Virus record (IMG/VR): IMGVR_UViG_3300032289_001309
Span: 1-27,907 of that record
From: a virus
DNA: 27,907 bases
Strand: one strand, 5' to 3'
Of the stretch, positions 2,634-12,957 are shown piece by piece (the first letter of the stretch is position 1; every line of letters starts with the position of its first letter). The notes beneath the pieces were generated by a model, which was not told where the DNA came from, did no database searches, and saw only the letters and a program-made list of their open reading frames with translations. Both the position numbers and the translations under genes were made by a program.

Positions 2634-2863
2634 CCGCACCGGAACCTCTCTCCCCCGCCGCGCAGGCGGTGCTGGATGCATTCTTATCTGAATGGGATGT
2701 TTATGCTGTTAGCGAAGCACGTTGGGCAACTGCCGCCGCCATCCGCGCTGCTGCGGATCGGTCGATGAACCTAATCGGTGACATTTGCCATCCAAAGTAC
2801 ATAGAAGGTATCGAAGCAGCATCAGATTTTCTGGAGCGCATCGCCGCCGAGCTGGAGGCCTGA
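2630..2863 (+). CDS. Small helical protein, SPAAQAVLDA family
   Basis: A 77-residue, probably all-helical acidic protein. The N-terminus (EPLSPAAQAVLDAF), the central AAAIRAAADRS and the end (FLERIAAELEA) form a pattern I have seen in many short proteins of high-G+C cyanobacteria and their phages. It is a recognisable but functionally unassigned family. The middle (FLSEWDVYAVSEARW) still has AT-rich codons, so the compositional island ends inside this gene. The start overlaps the previous stop by ATGA. It is the last gene of the tightly overlapping 5' operon; the next gene is 59 nt away. Confidence 0.65.
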   Translation: MTAPEPLSPAAQAVLDAFLSEWDVYAVSEARWATAAAIRAAADRSMNLIGDICHPKYIEGIEAASDFLERIAAELEA

Positions 2864-2922
2864 CCCCGCGGCCCGCCGGAGCCGCACCCAATCCGGCGAA
2901 CATCCACTCGCTCACCTCTCCA

Positions 2923-3510
2923 ATGGCTCTCATCTCTGGAACCTCCCGCGCCGATGTCCTGATCGGCAACACCAACGAAACCGATCAGATCTACGTCAAC
3001 AACATCGGCGATCAGATCCTCAACAGTGAGGGCCGCGACGTGATCCAGTCATGGATCAACTTCGACATGGCCGCCAGCCAGGCCCAGTACCTCGTGCTCA
3101 TGGGCCGCTCCGGTCTCACCGCCACCGGCACCGCCCGTGCGGAGGTGATCGGCGGCAACGCCGGCGACAACATCATCAACGGCGGCAAGGGCCAGGATCG
3201 ACTCACCGGTGGCCGCGGCGCTGACACCTTCGTGTTCGACGCCTACGGCCAGCTCAACGCCGACATCATCGAGGACTTCAGCCGGGCCCAGGGCGACACC
3301 ATGGCCCTGTCCGGCGACGTGTTCGGCGTCGCGGCCGGGACTGCTGTGGACTTCGCCGAGGGTGCTGCCCTGGGCGCTGGCCCGACGGTGTTCCGCGACG
3401 CCACGAACCAGCTGTGGTTCGATGCCGACGGCACCGGCGACGGTGCTGCGGTGGTGTTCGCGCAGTCGCGGGCCCAGGGGCTGGACTCCAGCTGCTTCGC
3501 GGTGATCTGA
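2923..3510 (+). CDS. RTX-type calcium-binding repeat protein
   Basis: A 195-residue protein. Residues 77-103 contain three consecutive glycine- and aspartate-rich nonapeptides (GGNAGDNII, NGGKGQDRL, TGGRGADTF), the RTX calcium-binding beta-roll, followed by VFDAYGQ and DIIEDF as in the C-terminal domain of serralysin-type secreted proteins. An earlier ADVLIGN segment may be a degenerate repeat. There is no signal peptide. Such proteins usually leave the cell by type I secretion using a C-terminal signal. Here the end reads SSCFAVI, which has the hydrophobic tail but not the usual acidic residue before it. ATG 2923 is chosen because upstream in-frame codons are low-complexity. The leader is C/A-rich without a Shine-Dalgarno. 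It may be a host-derived moron or a virion surface module. Confidence 0.8.
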   Translation: MALISGTSRADVLIGNTNETDQIYVNNIGDQILNSEGRDVIQSWINFDMAASQAQYLVLMGRSGLTATGTARAEVIGGNAGDNIINGGKGQDRLTGGRGADTFVFDAYGQLNADIIEDFSRAQGDTMALSGDVFGVAAGTAVDFAEGAALGAGPTVFRDATNQLWFDADGTGDGAAVVFAQSRAQGLDSSCFAVI

Positions 3511-6500: not shown

Positions 6501-7130
6501 ATGACTCAGACATCTCCGGTGGCAGCCCTTGCCATCTCCGCGCCGGACTTCCGGCACCTGAAGATCGACATCAAGGGCACAGCACCGTTGGTCATCAATC
6601 GATTCAGCGCCAAGGCCATGGAGATCATGCGTCAGACGCAAGAGGCCGGCAGTACCGCAAAGTCCAAGAAGACGCGAGACCCCAAGGACTTCGACGCGCT
6701 TTACGAGGGCGCCAAGCACATCTCGAATGAGGGCTGGGAGGGAATCCACGCAGCGGCATTCCGAAACGCTGCAATCAGCGCCTGCCGCGCCTGCGGCTTC
6801 AAGATGACTCACGCCAAACTGGCGTTCATGGTCCTATCAGACGGCTTTGACCGTGTTGACGGTGCGCCCCTGGTTCGGCTCACCAGCGGCGAGGCCGAGC
6901 CCTGGACCGCTCCGACCCGCAACGCGACCGGCGTGGTTGATCTCCGCTGCCGCCCCTTGTATCGCGAATGGTCCGCAACACTGCGGATCAGGTACGACGC
7001 CGGCATGCTGACCGATTCCGATGTGGTGAACCTGCTCGCCAGGGTGGGACTCCAGGTCGGCATCGGCGAGGGCCGTCCCGACAGCAAGCAGTCGGCCGGG
7101 CTGGGTTTCGGCCTGTTCGAGCTGATCTGA
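6501..7130 (+). CDS. Conserved phage early protein of unknown function
   Basis: A 209-residue protein of a type I remember from many phage early regions, usually unannotated. Features: KIDIKGTAPLVINRFS near the N-terminus, the basic SKKTRDPKDFDALYE segment, the central AFRNAAISACRACGFKMTHAK, and the C-terminal VGIGEGRP followed by a Gly-rich GLGFGLFEL end. The Gly-rich end is reminiscent of the glycine loops of RAMP/Cas7-like folds, but that is speculation. An early role in DNA metabolism or host takeover is possible. A terminator-like hairpin (7140-7158) and then the GGCNN repeat tract follow immediately. The next gene (7833) also begins MTQ and may be functionally linked. Confidence 0.7.
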   Translation: MTQTSPVAALAISAPDFRHLKIDIKGTAPLVINRFSAKAMEIMRQTQEAGSTAKSKKTRDPKDFDALYEGAKHISNEGWEGIHAAAFRNAAISACRACGFKMTHAKLAFMVLSDGFDRVDGAPLVRLTSGEAEPWTAPTRNATGVVDLRCRPLYREWSATLRIRYDAGMLTDSDVVNLLARVGLQVGIGEGRPDSKQSAGLGFGLFELI

Positions 7131-7139
7131 TCGCATCGT

Positions 7140-7158
7140 GGCCCGGCTTTGCCGGGCC
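7140..7158 (+). terminator. Terminator-like hairpin after the 6501 gene
   Basis: Perfect eight-pair stem (7140-7147 with 7151-7158), TTT loop, then TTCATGGC. The T run is only two bases, but the downstream context matches that of the strong terminator at 5062. The GGCNN tract starts at its base. Confidence 0.55.
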
Positions 7159-7163
7159 TTCAT

Positions 7164-7807
7164 GGCAGGCAAGGCACGGCTTGGCGCGGCGAGGCCGGGC
7201 AGGGCAGGCAAGGCACCGCAGGCAAGGCACGGCTTGGCGGGCAAGGCGAGGCATGGCGTAGCGCGGCGGGGCTCGGCTTGGCAGGCGAGGCGTGGCTTGG
7301 CAGGGCGCGGCCCGGCCGGGTCAGGCACCGCAGGCAAGGCAAGGCCCGGCAGGGTGGCGACTGGCGAGGTGAGGCAGGCGTGGCGTGGCCTGGCTCGGCA
7401 TGGCACCGCAGGCACGGCAAGGCACGGCAAGGCATGGCACGGCCGGGCACGGCCGGGCAAGGCCCGGCGCGGCAGGCAATGCTAGGAGTGGCTGGGTAGG
7501 CGAGGCAGGCTCGGCGAGGCAAGGCAAGGTAGGCAAGGCAGGCATGGTGCGCCCTGGCTGGGCCCGGCTCGGCAAGGCTCGGCAAGGCGAGGCACCGCAG
7601 GCAAGGCAAGGCCAGGCGCGGCGGGTCGTGGCGGGGCAGGCATGGCAAGGCCTGGCAAGGCGCGGCAAGGACCGGCCGGGCATCGCAGGCAAGGCAGGCA
7701 TGGCAAGGCTTGGCAAGGCCAGGCAAGGCCCGGCATGGCACCGCAGGCATGGCAAGGCCTGGCAAGGCGCGGCAAGGCCCGGCCGGGCCTGGCGAGGCAG
7801 GCAAGGC
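7164..7807. repeat. Degenerate GGCNN pentanucleotide tandem array
   Basis: About 640 bp made almost entirely of five-base steps GGCNN (GGCAA, GGCAC, GGCAT, GGCTT, GGCGC, GGCCG and others), with occasional four- or nine-base steps. The word GGCACCGCA followed by GGCA recurs at 7212, 7324, 7402, 7591 and 7737. The + strand has regularly spaced GG pairs. GGCNN contains no stop codon in most registers, so long ORFs appear on both strands; these are treated as artefacts. No conventional gene is seen here. It separates the genes at 6501 and 7833. Confidence 0.9.
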
Positions 7808-7832
7808 ACCATCAACCTTCACATCAACTCCA

Positions 7833-8312
7833 ATGACTCAGTATCAGTTCAGGGAAGGCAGCCGAATCACGGCCGTCAGTGCACAGACAATCGGCGACGA
7901 ACTCAGCCGAATCCAGCGGGAAGATCACGCCGTCACGCCAACGGCAGTTGTCAATGCCGCCAGGCCGGATGACGCACCGTTGCATCCCGCCTTTGAGTGG
8001 GATGATGTCATTGCCGCAGAGGCTCACCGCGAGCATCAGGCTCGCACGTTGATCCGATCGGTGACGGTCATCCGCGACGAAAAGCGTGAACCGGTCTACA
8101 CCCACGTCCAGTCGATCGGATACATGCCGACGCCGATGGTCGCTGCGAATGAGGATCTGTTTCAGATGGCGGTCAAGGAAGCCACCAAGCGGCTCAAGTC
8201 CGCAGAGGAACAGGTCGGGATTCTGCTGCGCTACAGCAAGGGCGATGATCTGGTCAGGGTTCAATCGGCCCTGCGGGACATCGAGAGCGCGGCGGCTCAG
8301 ATTGAAGGGTGA
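7833..8312 (+). CDS. Hypothetical phage early protein
   Basis: A 159-residue protein. The first part (QFREGSRITAVSAQTIGDELSRIQ) precedes a section with PLHPAFEWDDVIAAEAHREHQARTLIRSV, typical of phage proteins that contain a short helical segment after a PLHP-x-F-EW motif. The later IGYMPTPMVAANEDLF and a helical C-terminus (AVKEATKRLKSAEEQVGIL) follow. I recall similar unnamed proteins near recombination or early genes. ATG 7833 is chosen because the in-frame extension upstream runs into the GGCNN repeat. The leader (accttcacatcaactcca) lacks a Shine-Dalgarno. It is convergent with the helicase gene on the minus strand. Confidence 0.65.
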   Translation: MTQYQFREGSRITAVSAQTIGDELSRIQREDHAVTPTAVVNAARPDDAPLHPAFEWDDVIAAEAHREHQARTLIRSVTVIRDEKREPVYTHVQSIGYMPTPMVAANEDLFQMAVKEATKRLKSAEEQVGILLRYSKGDDLVRVQSALRDIESAAAQIEG

Positions 8313-8319
8313 CCCCCAC

Positions 8320-8337
8320 GGGGCCCATCAGGGCCCC
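8320..8337. terminator. Hairpin between convergent genes
   Basis: GGGGCCC (8320-8326) and GGGCCCC (8331-8337) form a perfect stem around ATCA, just after the 7833 gene stop and 36 nt beyond the end of the convergent helicase gene. No T run on either strand. Position suggests a bidirectional 3'-end element. Confidence 0.4.
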
Positions 8338-8387
8338 ATCACCCTCCCCCGCCCATCACCCTCCCCCGCCCATCACCCTCCCCGCGC
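8337..8387. repeat. 17-bp tandem repeat, three copies
   Basis: Units 8337-8353 and 8354-8370 are identical (CATCACCCTCCCCCGCC); 8371-8387 is a slightly changed third copy. The array spans the 3' end of the helicase gene, whose stop lies at 8373-8375. Copy-number change would alter the helicase 3' region but not most of the protein. Confidence 0.85.
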
Positions 8388-9737
8388 CATCCGCCCCGCC
8401 ACGACCCGCTGGGCCCAGCCCCACGGGTTCGCCATGCCGCGGGCCCTGCCGATCTGGACCAGCTCCTGGTAGGTCCTGGCCTGGCCCTGCTCGCGCTTCC
8501 GGGCCCGGGCCTCGCCGGCCTTCATCTCCCGCAGCTCCCCCGAGGTCATCCGCAGCTCTCGCGGCTTCACCGCCGGCACCGCTCCGCACTCGGGGCAGGC
8601 CGGCAGCGTCGGGCTGTAGCACGCGAAGCACCGGTCGCACTCGCGCACCGGCACCACCTGCCCGCCATCCCGGACCCGGCGGCGCCGGCCGTCCAGGCTC
8701 CACTCCCGTCGCTCCTCCGGCAGCCCGTGGCGCCGAACGTTGCCGACGTGGTCCAGGATCAGGCAGTCATCCTTCCCCGGTGCCGTGCGCAGCCCTCGGC
8801 CGCAGCCCTGCAGCCAGATCGTGACCGATGCCGTCGGCCGCAGCCAGATCACGGCGTCGAGGGCCGGCACGTCGACCCCGGCGACCCACAGCTGGGCGCA
8901 GGCCACCAGGTCCAGGTTGCCAGCCCTGAGCAGCTGCACCGCCTGCTGGCGCTGGTCGTCGCTGCTGCAGCCCGAAACCGCCATGGCCCGCAGCCCGGCC
9001 GCCTGCCACCGCTCGGCCACCGCCTGGGCATGGCGCACGGTTGAGCAGAAGGCCACACCGCGGCGCCCCTGGCACAGCCGCTGCCAGTGCTCAAGCGCGT
9101 CGCCCACGATCGTCGGCCGCGACAGGATCTCCCCGGCAGCCCCCTGGTCGAACTCGCCAGCCCGCATCCGCACCTGCGACAGGTCGGCGATGGCCGGGGC
9201 GAACGTCCGGGGCCGGGCCAGCAGGCCCTCGGCCACCAGCTCGCCGGTGCTGCACGTCGGCACCAGCCCGTCGAACAGCTCGCGCAGGCCACGACCGTCG
9301 AGCCGTTCGGGGGTGCCGGTCAAGCCCAGCAGGAGCGGGTTGCCCGCGGCGGCGATCACCTGCCGGTAGGTGGCGGCCACCGCCAGATGGCACTCATCGA
9401 CGATGATCAGATCCGGCGGATCCAGCTGGCGCCGCGCGGCCGTCTGAACCCCGACGACCTGGACCGGGGCTGGAACCGGGCGATGGCCAGCGCGGATCTG
9501 CCCGAACTGGATCCCGGACTGGTCCAGCCGCTGCGCCGTGTCGTCGAGGATCTCGCGCAGGTGGGCCAGGAACCACACCCGCCGGCCACGGGCCAGGGCC
9601 GACCGGATGATCTCCACCGACACGGCCGTCTTGCCGAACCCCGTGGGCGCCACCAGTACCGGTGCCCGGGCGCCTGAGGCGTAGGCGCGGCGGAGGTCGT
9701 CGAGCGCCTGCTGCTGGCGGGGGCGGAGGGCGAGCAT
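8373..9737 (-). CDS. SF2 DEAD/DEAH-type helicase with C-terminal zinc ribbon
   Basis: A 454-residue ATP-dependent helicase. From the chosen start at 9737 (MLALRPRQQQALDDL, the usual Q-tip-like opening): Walker A APTGFGKT at 30-37, DECH at about 114-117, motif III region LTGTPER, and motif VI QGCGRGLRT. After the helicase core comes a zinc ribbon (CDRCFACYS to CPECG), then a basic helical tail. This arrangement is common in phage SF2 helicases that act in replication or recombination. An in-frame ATG at 9788 would add 17 residues but would lie over the divergent promoter. It is the only minus-strand gene in the window, placed back-to-back with the ribbon-helix-helix gene. Confidence 0.85.
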   Translation of the reverse strand: MLALRPRQQQALDDLRRAYASGARAPVLVAPTGFGKTAVSVEIIRSALARGRRVWFLAHLREILDDTAQRLDQSGIQFGQIRAGHRPVPAPVQVVGVQTAARRQLDPPDLIIVDECHLAVAATYRQVIAAAGNPLLLGLTGTPERLDGRGLRELFDGLVPTCSTGELVAEGLLARPRTFAPAIADLSQVRMRAGEFDQGAAGEILSRPTIVGDALEHWQRLCQGRRGVAFCSTVRHAQAVAERWQAAGLRAMAVSGCSSDDQRQQAVQLLRAGNLDLVACAQLWVAGVDVPALDAVIWLRPTASVTIWLQGCGRGLRTAPGKDDCLILDHVGNVRRHGLPEERREWSLDGRRRRVRDGGQVVPVRECDRCFACYSPTLPACPECGAVPAVKPRELRMTSGELREMKAGEARARKREQGQARTYQELVQIGRARGMANPWGWAQRVVAGRMARGG

Positions 9738-9752
9738 GGGGCCAGGGTCAGC

Positions 9753-9759
9753 TATAGTA
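9753..9759. promoter_or_regulatory. Overlapping divergent -10 elements
   Basis: On the + strand TATAGT (9753-9758) suits the 9787 gene. On the minus strand the same bases read TACTAT (9759-9754) and suit the helicase start at 9737. An ATGG-N5-CCAT inverted repeat (9759-9771) overlaps and could be an operator. No good -35 on either side. Confidence 0.5.
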
Positions 9760-9786
9760 TGGTGCAGCCATGGTAGACCCCAGGGC

Positions 9787-9939
9787 ATGAAGCGCTACGA
9801 CTCAACCCGCATGGTGCGGGTCATCCTGTCAGAGGATCAGCGGCAGTGGCTGGAATCCAAGGCCACAGGGATGAACACGATGTCGGCGGTGATTCGTCGG
9901 ATTATTGATCAGGCGATGACCCAGGGCCCTCATGCCTGA
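9787..9939 (+). CDS. Ribbon-helix-helix DNA-binding protein (50 aa)
   Basis: A 50-residue protein with the CopG/Arc-like plan: a strand (TRMVRVILSE), a helix (DQRQWLESKATG), a turn, and a second helix (MSAVIRRIIDQAM). Such proteins act as dimeric repressors that insert a two-stranded sheet into the major groove and bind short repeated boxes. ATG 9787 is used; an upstream in-frame GTG/ATG stretch lies across the divergent promoter. Its end overlaps the primase-polymerase start by 8 nt. It may repress the divergent promoter at 9753 or bind the GTAAC boxes, but neither is shown by the sequence. Confidence 0.7.
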   Translation: MKRYDSTRMVRVILSEDQRQWLESKATGMNTMSAVIRRIIDQAMTQGPHA

Positions 9940-12616: not shown

Positions 12617-12957
12617 CGCTCTGCGGGCGTAACGCAGGTGGGTCGGTGTAACGCTTTCAGGGGGGTGCGTTACGCCCCGGATCCCTTGGCATGACTGGGT
12701 TGTAACGCTTTTCAGGGTTGTAACGCCGAAAGGTATAGCCCCCTAAATCCATCCTTCCATCCATCCATCCATCCATCCATCCATCCATATATACATATCT
12801 GTTACGTTACATATAAATATAAGAGGGGGTGAGATTCACTGCAGCGCAAGGGATTTCGGCTGTAACGCCCCCCGTTACACCCTGGGTAGCGAGACACATA
12901 AGACCCCAGCCTGGGGCTGTGATCTGGGCCGTTACGCCCCCCTGCTGGACCCGTAAC
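12613..12957. other. Putative replication origin: GTAAC box cluster
   Basis: Twelve GTAAC/GTTAC words within 345 bp (12613, 12629, 12648, 12669, 12702, 12720, 12801, 12806, 12862, 12874, 12931, 12953), most extended to GTAACGC. Some are paired: 12861-12867 with 12873-12879 is a perfect TGTAACG-N5-CGTTACA inverted repeat; 12648-12654 with 12667-12673 is GTAACGC-N12-GCGTTAC. An AT-rich segment (12787-12832) lies inside. Directly downstream of the primase-helicase gene, this is a classic phage origin layout. A dense operator array is the alternative. I see no convincing gene between 12617 and 13083. Confidence 0.6.
12747..12786. repeat. ATCC tetranucleotide microsatellite
   Basis: Ten consecutive ATCC units with one TTCC variant (12755-12758), next to the AT-rich segment of the putative origin. 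Length variation between isolates would be expected. Confidence 0.9.

Follow-up and report, generated by a model that had tools for sequence, protein, structure and literature searches.

A phage-borne locus that very probably encodes a VIPR system, with at least two guides predicted to match a PLD-like endonuclease gene

The first description of VIPR (Viral Interference Programmable Repeat), an RNA-guided class of systems, came in an April 2026 preprint on Escherichia phage SUSP1 and a Pseudomonas fulva prophage (PMC13142463). According to that preprint, VIPR combines a RAMP protein, Vipr, defined as a single-RRM RAMP homologue with a G-loop and a thumb, with vrRNAs in which a constant GGY alternates with a hypervariable NN over 9-16 tandem repeats. 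Transcription is reported for the arrays of SUSP1 and P. fulva, as is their co-purification with Vipr; in SUSP1 there are four separate vrRNAs, each about 100 nt long with a structured 3' tail, and 'staggered arrays with overlapping vrRNAs' are also mentioned. The NNs pair with double-stranded DNA, and from one NN to the next a single base is skipped, in most cases the wobble position of a codon; binding silences the targets, which lie in rival phages and sometimes in other VIPR systems (PMC13142463). Here, a 27.9-kb virus record (IMGVR_UViG_3300032289_001309, positions 1 to 27,907; the whole stretch analysed, hereafter the window) with terminase, portal and head genes and a PrimPol-type primase is compared with these systems. 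It very probably carries a phage-borne VIPR system, consisting of vipr, a guide array and a candidate vap (VIPR accessory) gene, with at least two guides aimed at a PLD-like endonuclease gene (Table 1). The assignment to VIPR follows from the linkage of the array to two genes, from a profile match to PDB entry 36pp and from the RAMP fold. An initial annotation of the array had held that no phage element of this kind was described, which is almost true given the date of the preprint; what looks new here is the decoded target, together with guides that look like duplicates which then diverged to suit variants of the target, the VIPR class itself being a recent description.

The array contains 115 GGC trinucleotides, and 86 of the 114 spacings between them are exactly 5 nt, against 5.9 ± 2.4 GGC pairs at this distance (maximum 14) in 1000 dinucleotide shuffles. 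Its self-match at lag 5 is 0.618, compared with 0.330 ± 0.018 for these shuffles (z 15.8), and the best other 647-nt stretch of the window reaches only 0.33. These values bear out the period-5 GGCNN array reported in the initial annotation, with a signal far above composition-matched shuffles, whereas the claim that it is strictly phased was wrong. Among the units of the parse, 112 are GGC and 6 are GGT, and the phase is reset by 4-nt units (in most cases GGCA or CGCA, with GGC next) that split the array into runs, of which the full ones hold 6-12 pentamers between delimiters. The recurring word noted in the same annotation, GGCACCGCA, is present but proves to be one pentamer plus a 4-nt delimiter. 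Over the 96 whole units, positions 1, 2 and 3 (GGC) carry 1.83, 1.83 and 1.61 bits while positions 4 and 5 carry 0.17 and 0.05 bits, so that the NN is free, and 94 of these units have a pyrimidine in third place, rarely T and otherwise C, in agreement with the GGY/NN unit of VIPR.

The regular spacing of GG, every 5 nt along 650 nt of one strand, could suggest two-tier G-quadruplexes, formed in DNA or RNA and controlling replication or early-gene expression, as the reason for the pattern. A pyrimidine conserved at the third base is superfluous for a quadruplex, the loop NNs are free, and the 4-nt delimiters, the linkage to Vipr, in arrays that stay with two protein genes even in distant phages, and the in-phase target matches described below would be left unexplained, which makes this explanation extremely improbable. 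A coding repeat was also considered; ORFs run through the array in several frames, yet the unit statistics and the delimiters argue against it. In Mycobacterium phage Donkeykong, the ORF annotated as gp48, 'hypothetical protein' (L009:5913-6299), coincides with the VIPR array. A collapsed or chimeric assembly is contradicted by a related array of 61 GGC that five separate assemblies (L013, L015-L018) show with identical extent and spacing counts, and the array type is therefore not an assembly artefact. The hairpin before the array had been called terminator-like, and its stem is indeed perfect, but it was not called by the terminator scan because it lacks a T-run. No promoter was found, and an Rfam search of the window returned no match.

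The two families flanking the array, phrog_4652 and phrog_15946, are annotated without known function. Among solved structures, a profile of 55 phrog_4652 relatives matched a single chain, the 'SUSP1 Vipr protein' of PDB 36pp (E 5.5e-11). The AlphaFold2 model of the window protein (pLDDT 86.7) was compared with the PDB by Foldseek, where the top 23 matches are all CRISPR RAMPs; its best Z is about 11, to Csm3/Cas7 chains, and the family has an invariant glycine-rich loop close to its C terminus. By profile and model, the gene product is a Vipr homologue with a predicted Cas7/Csm3-like RAMP fold. The phrog_15946 protein gave a confident, mostly helical model with no significant fold match in the PDB.

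Scanning IMG/VR with both families yielded 157 loci, and all loci with either gene number 161; the two genes occur together in 148 of the 161, and a period-5 G array is present in 157 of them, the four loci that lack it (L044, L077, L113, L145) being contigs that end near the gene. The GGC of the arrays lies on the coding strand of the genes and not on the complement. With phrog_4652 as A and phrog_15946 as B, the order is A-array-B in 115 loci, A-B-array in 28 and array-A-B in 4, with a single gene in view in 10. GGCNN arrays had been proposed as something to look for in other genomes, and when phage records were searched at the DNA level, Mycobacterium phages Donkeykong, Quico and Florinda as well as Cyanophage Cy-LDV1 proved to carry similar arrays. 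In the three of these records that were examined (Donkeykong, Quico and Cy-LDV1) the array adjoins genes of both families, in an order that differs between the window (4652-array-15946), the mycobacteriophages (array-4652-15946) and Cy-LDV1 (4652-15946-array). These observations tie phrog_4652 and phrog_15946 to VIPR in probable cyanophages, in phages of mycobacteria and of Gordonia and at loci of proteobacterial genomes. For the window phage itself, a close vipr gene in a Synechococcaceae MAG contig, together with Cy-LDV1, suggests a cyanobacterial host.

With GGC recurring every 5 bp next to two conserved genes, the repeat might also be read as a DNA landing array, on which Vipr or the phrog_15946 protein would sit on a GGC every half turn at an operator or partition site; a protein-binding face of this kind had been raised in the initial annotation. 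Vipr, however, is a RAMP, a family that binds guide RNA, the transcription of the SUSP1 and P. fulva arrays and their co-purification with Vipr (PMC13142463) speak for an RNA, and the delimiters break the helical phase, so that a landing array is very improbable and the reading is not needed. The alternative guess, a functional RNA made from the array, appears to have been right.

Arrays in GC-rich genomes are of the GGCNN type and those in AT-rich genomes show a looser period-5 G pattern. In the AT-rich relatives L048, L049, L055, L061, L064, L065 and L070, degenerate period-5 arrays follow the vipr gene, with GGN-like units and GCA-GGC delimiters that amount to a different unit consensus. 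Next to the candidate vap gene of the window lies a ResIII/DEAD helicase gene (phrog_16; 8373-9788, minus strand) that is probably outside the system; it was rejected as a fixed part, being found in just 34 of the 161 loci and at scattered distances. The 17-bp CCCATCACCCTCCCCCG is repeated three times in tandem at 8335-8388, just after the candidate vap gene.

With VIPR as known from SUSP1 and P. fulva, the window shares a RAMP-fold Vipr, a minimal two-gene phage locus, GGY/NN units, putative targets in other phages or other vipr genes, and a skipped base that is the codon wobble. In the SUSP1 record itself, a repeat of the GGT type adjoins the vipr gene. In contrast to the four separate, tailed vrRNAs of SUSP1, the window has one 650-bp head-to-tail array with 4-nt delimiters, in which the unit parse finds no obvious tail between guides, and this architecture may correspond to the staggered, overlapping arrays mentioned in PMC13142463. 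Moreover, the Y of the window is almost always C, unlike SUSP1-type VIPR, and its accessory family phrog_15946 is not mapped to any of the vap numbers (vap1-6) of the preprint. Class 1 CRISPR-Cas, with its Csm3/Cas7 RAMPs, has in common with the window the RAMP fold, an array adjoining the effector gene and periodic protein-guide contacts, whereas the window array consists of GGCNN units only, without other cas genes, palindromic repeats or contiguous spacers; the period is 6 nt in class 1 CRISPR-Cas and 5 nt in the window, where pairing would be noncontiguous. A Pfam scan of 10 early-region proteins, including those of both array-flanking genes, gave no cas match. To our knowledge, the Tas proteins of TIGR-Tas systems are unrelated to RAMPs, and their repeat organisation differs from that of VIPR. 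TIGR-Tas resembles the system proposed for the window in being phage-borne, RNA-guided and DNA-targeting with a tandem guide array (PMC12045711).

Table 1. Features of the putative VIPR locus (window positions; guide intervals without the delimiter in brackets)
Feature	Position	Strand	Details
vipr gene	6501-7130	+	phrog_4652, E 3.8e-16; 209 aa; predicted small RAMP (Cas7/Csm3-like)
Hairpin between vipr stop and array	7140-7158 (arms 7140-7147/7151-7158)	+	8-bp GC stem, perfect; no T-run
vrRNA guide array (predicted)	7164-7810	+	133 units, GGC(NN), 4-nt delimiters GGCA/CGCA; from unit parse, shuffle test, per-position information and conservation beside two genes
Longest unbroken guide	7411-7474 (7411-7470)	+	12 NN: AC AA AC AA AT AC CG AC CG AA CC GC, plus delimiter
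Guide g6	7639-7687 (7639-7683)	+	AT AA CT AA GC AA CC CG AT, plus delimiter; reads MNLNANPRM; 18/18 in L183
Guide g7	7697-7745 (7697-7741)	+	AT AA TT AA CA AA CC AT AC, plus delimiter; frame MNxNxNP
Guide g8	7746-7795	+	AT AA CT AA GC AA CC CG CT GA; reads MNLNANPRLE; 20/20 in L181
Candidate vap gene	7833-8312	+	phrog_15946, E 2e-18; 159 aa

The guides of the window were decoded by the 1-nt skip rule taken from PMC13142463. The first nine NN of g8 gave one match in IMG/VR, in contig L181, which extends to all ten NN and lies on the coding strand, in codon phase and with the wobble base skipped. The gene matched belongs to phrog_16945 (E 6e-30), the protein of which we read as a PLD-like endonuclease from its HxK and SMN motifs, and RTSMNLNAN is a conserved motif of this family. 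Guide g6 shares eight NN with g8 and then diverges, and it fits the homologue in L183 over its full length, likewise in codon phase. When 0, 2 or 3 nt are skipped, the scores of g6 and g8 drop to 13-15, and a scan with the g8 units in shuffled order gave no match. Guide g7 keeps the AT-AA-x-AA-x-AA-CC frame of the other two, and no convincing target was found for it: its phage matches came from a single AT-rich phage, present as two records, and fell outside the codon phase, so that they were attributed to chance, and 400 Synechococcaceae-family genomes searched at up to 2 mismatches gave background only, the reversed control behaving alike. For the longest unbroken guide, IMG/VR matches in L212/L213 cover 9 NN but reach 20/24 in full and are non-coding, and they were set aside as chance. 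Guide 7541 had no match in IMG/VR, and no target was found for window guides other than g6 and g8.

The phrog_16945 gene adjoins a terminase gene in L181, in L184/L185 and in the Synechococcaceae-family genome L235, and the terminase, portal and head protein of L181 are 29-32% identical to those of the window phage. The PLD-like gene at L181:9793-10392 and that at L235:9596-10270 are directly next to the terminase large subunit. Among Synechococcaceae-family genomes the PLD-like gene is rare (4 of 330) and found in prophage-like loci, a rarity that is expected for a prophage gene. The phrog_15946 family is absent from the four target-bearing virus records that were searched. On sequence grounds the candidate target is a gene of mobile elements, placed beside terminase genes in phages and in prophage-like regions whose head genes are homologous to those of the window phage, and its carriers, with their related head and packaging genes, are likely rivals of the window phage; PLD-like genes would be the biological targets of g6 and g8, and silencing them would harm the rival.

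It is conceivable, although we consider it unlikely, that the VIPR array is real and the match to the PLD-like endonuclease a coincidence, the guides being aimed at genes outside the databases and homologues matching through the conserved motif. Most window guides are without a match, and the g6 and g8 matches are not independent because the two guides have eight NN in common and the motif is conserved. Gapped 18-base matches arise by chance at about 0.5 per scan, and in each of two further scans a single chance phage came up at this length; since such matches are common, g8 is persuasive through its full length of 20/20, its phase, the gene in which it falls and the g6 variant. A coincidence would have to place that match on the coding strand of a phage whose terminase, portal and head genes have homologues in the window, fit the differing unit of g6 to the natural variant in L183, and strike a gene that also occurs in prophage-like loci of Synechococcaceae-family genomes.

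The skip rule was also applied elsewhere in the clade, where 271 guides from all loci were read against the DNA of the collected loci. The two best 1-nt-skip matches among them are a guide of L165 (5479-5523), with 16/16 within the vipr gene of L142 (4735), and a guide of L172 (7636-7690), with 19/20 within the vipr gene of L030 (890), both in codon phase. As candidate VIPR-against-VIPR guides, these fit the report in PMC13142463 that other VIPR systems are sometimes targeted, and they lend the code independent support within this clade. Over all guides, near-match counts are at most slightly above shuffles and do not clearly exceed them, a weak excess explained by the small amount of candidate target DNA searched, and such clade-wide statistics were rejected as a stand-alone proof, being too weak alone.

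By analogy with the described systems, the array would be transcribed from the plus strand into vrRNAs, RNA production being known from the preprint (PMC13142463). Each Vipr subunit is thought to hold one GGC, leaving the NN dinucleotides to pair with the target, and with one target base skipped between NNs about 8-12 units would read 16-24 bases over 24-36 bp. The skipped base is the codon wobble, so that synonymous changes in the target would give no escape. Binding would be expected to silence the target gene, as in PMC13142463, and at least two guides would be directed at the conserved motif of the PLD-like endonuclease gene beside rival terminase genes. Tandem duplications (58 and 107 bp) contain guides g6 and g8, and the units that distinguish these two guides are variable in the target family as well, a pattern suggesting that new guides originate as copies in which single units then change. 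It may be, and we propose it tentatively as somewhat doubtful, that arrays of this type learn in this way, by tandem guide duplication followed by single-NN divergence that tracks the natural variants, in rival phages, of one conserved motif (g6, g8 and perhaps g7; MNxNxNP of the PLD-like endonuclease), without spacer-acquisition machinery. The analysis thereby provides, in g8 and L181, a directly testable guide-target pair, a hint at guide origin without an adaptation module, and a simple rule for recognising VIPR arrays in raw sequence.

Other features of the window include a 15/45-bp tandem repeat at 1-162, which reads like a pentapeptide-repeat protein and is cut by the window start, an ORF at 2785-3510 in which Pfam recognises an RTX calcium-binding repeat (HemolysinCabind, E 1.3e-6), and a tandem repeat of ten ATCC units at 12747-12788, after the primase gene.
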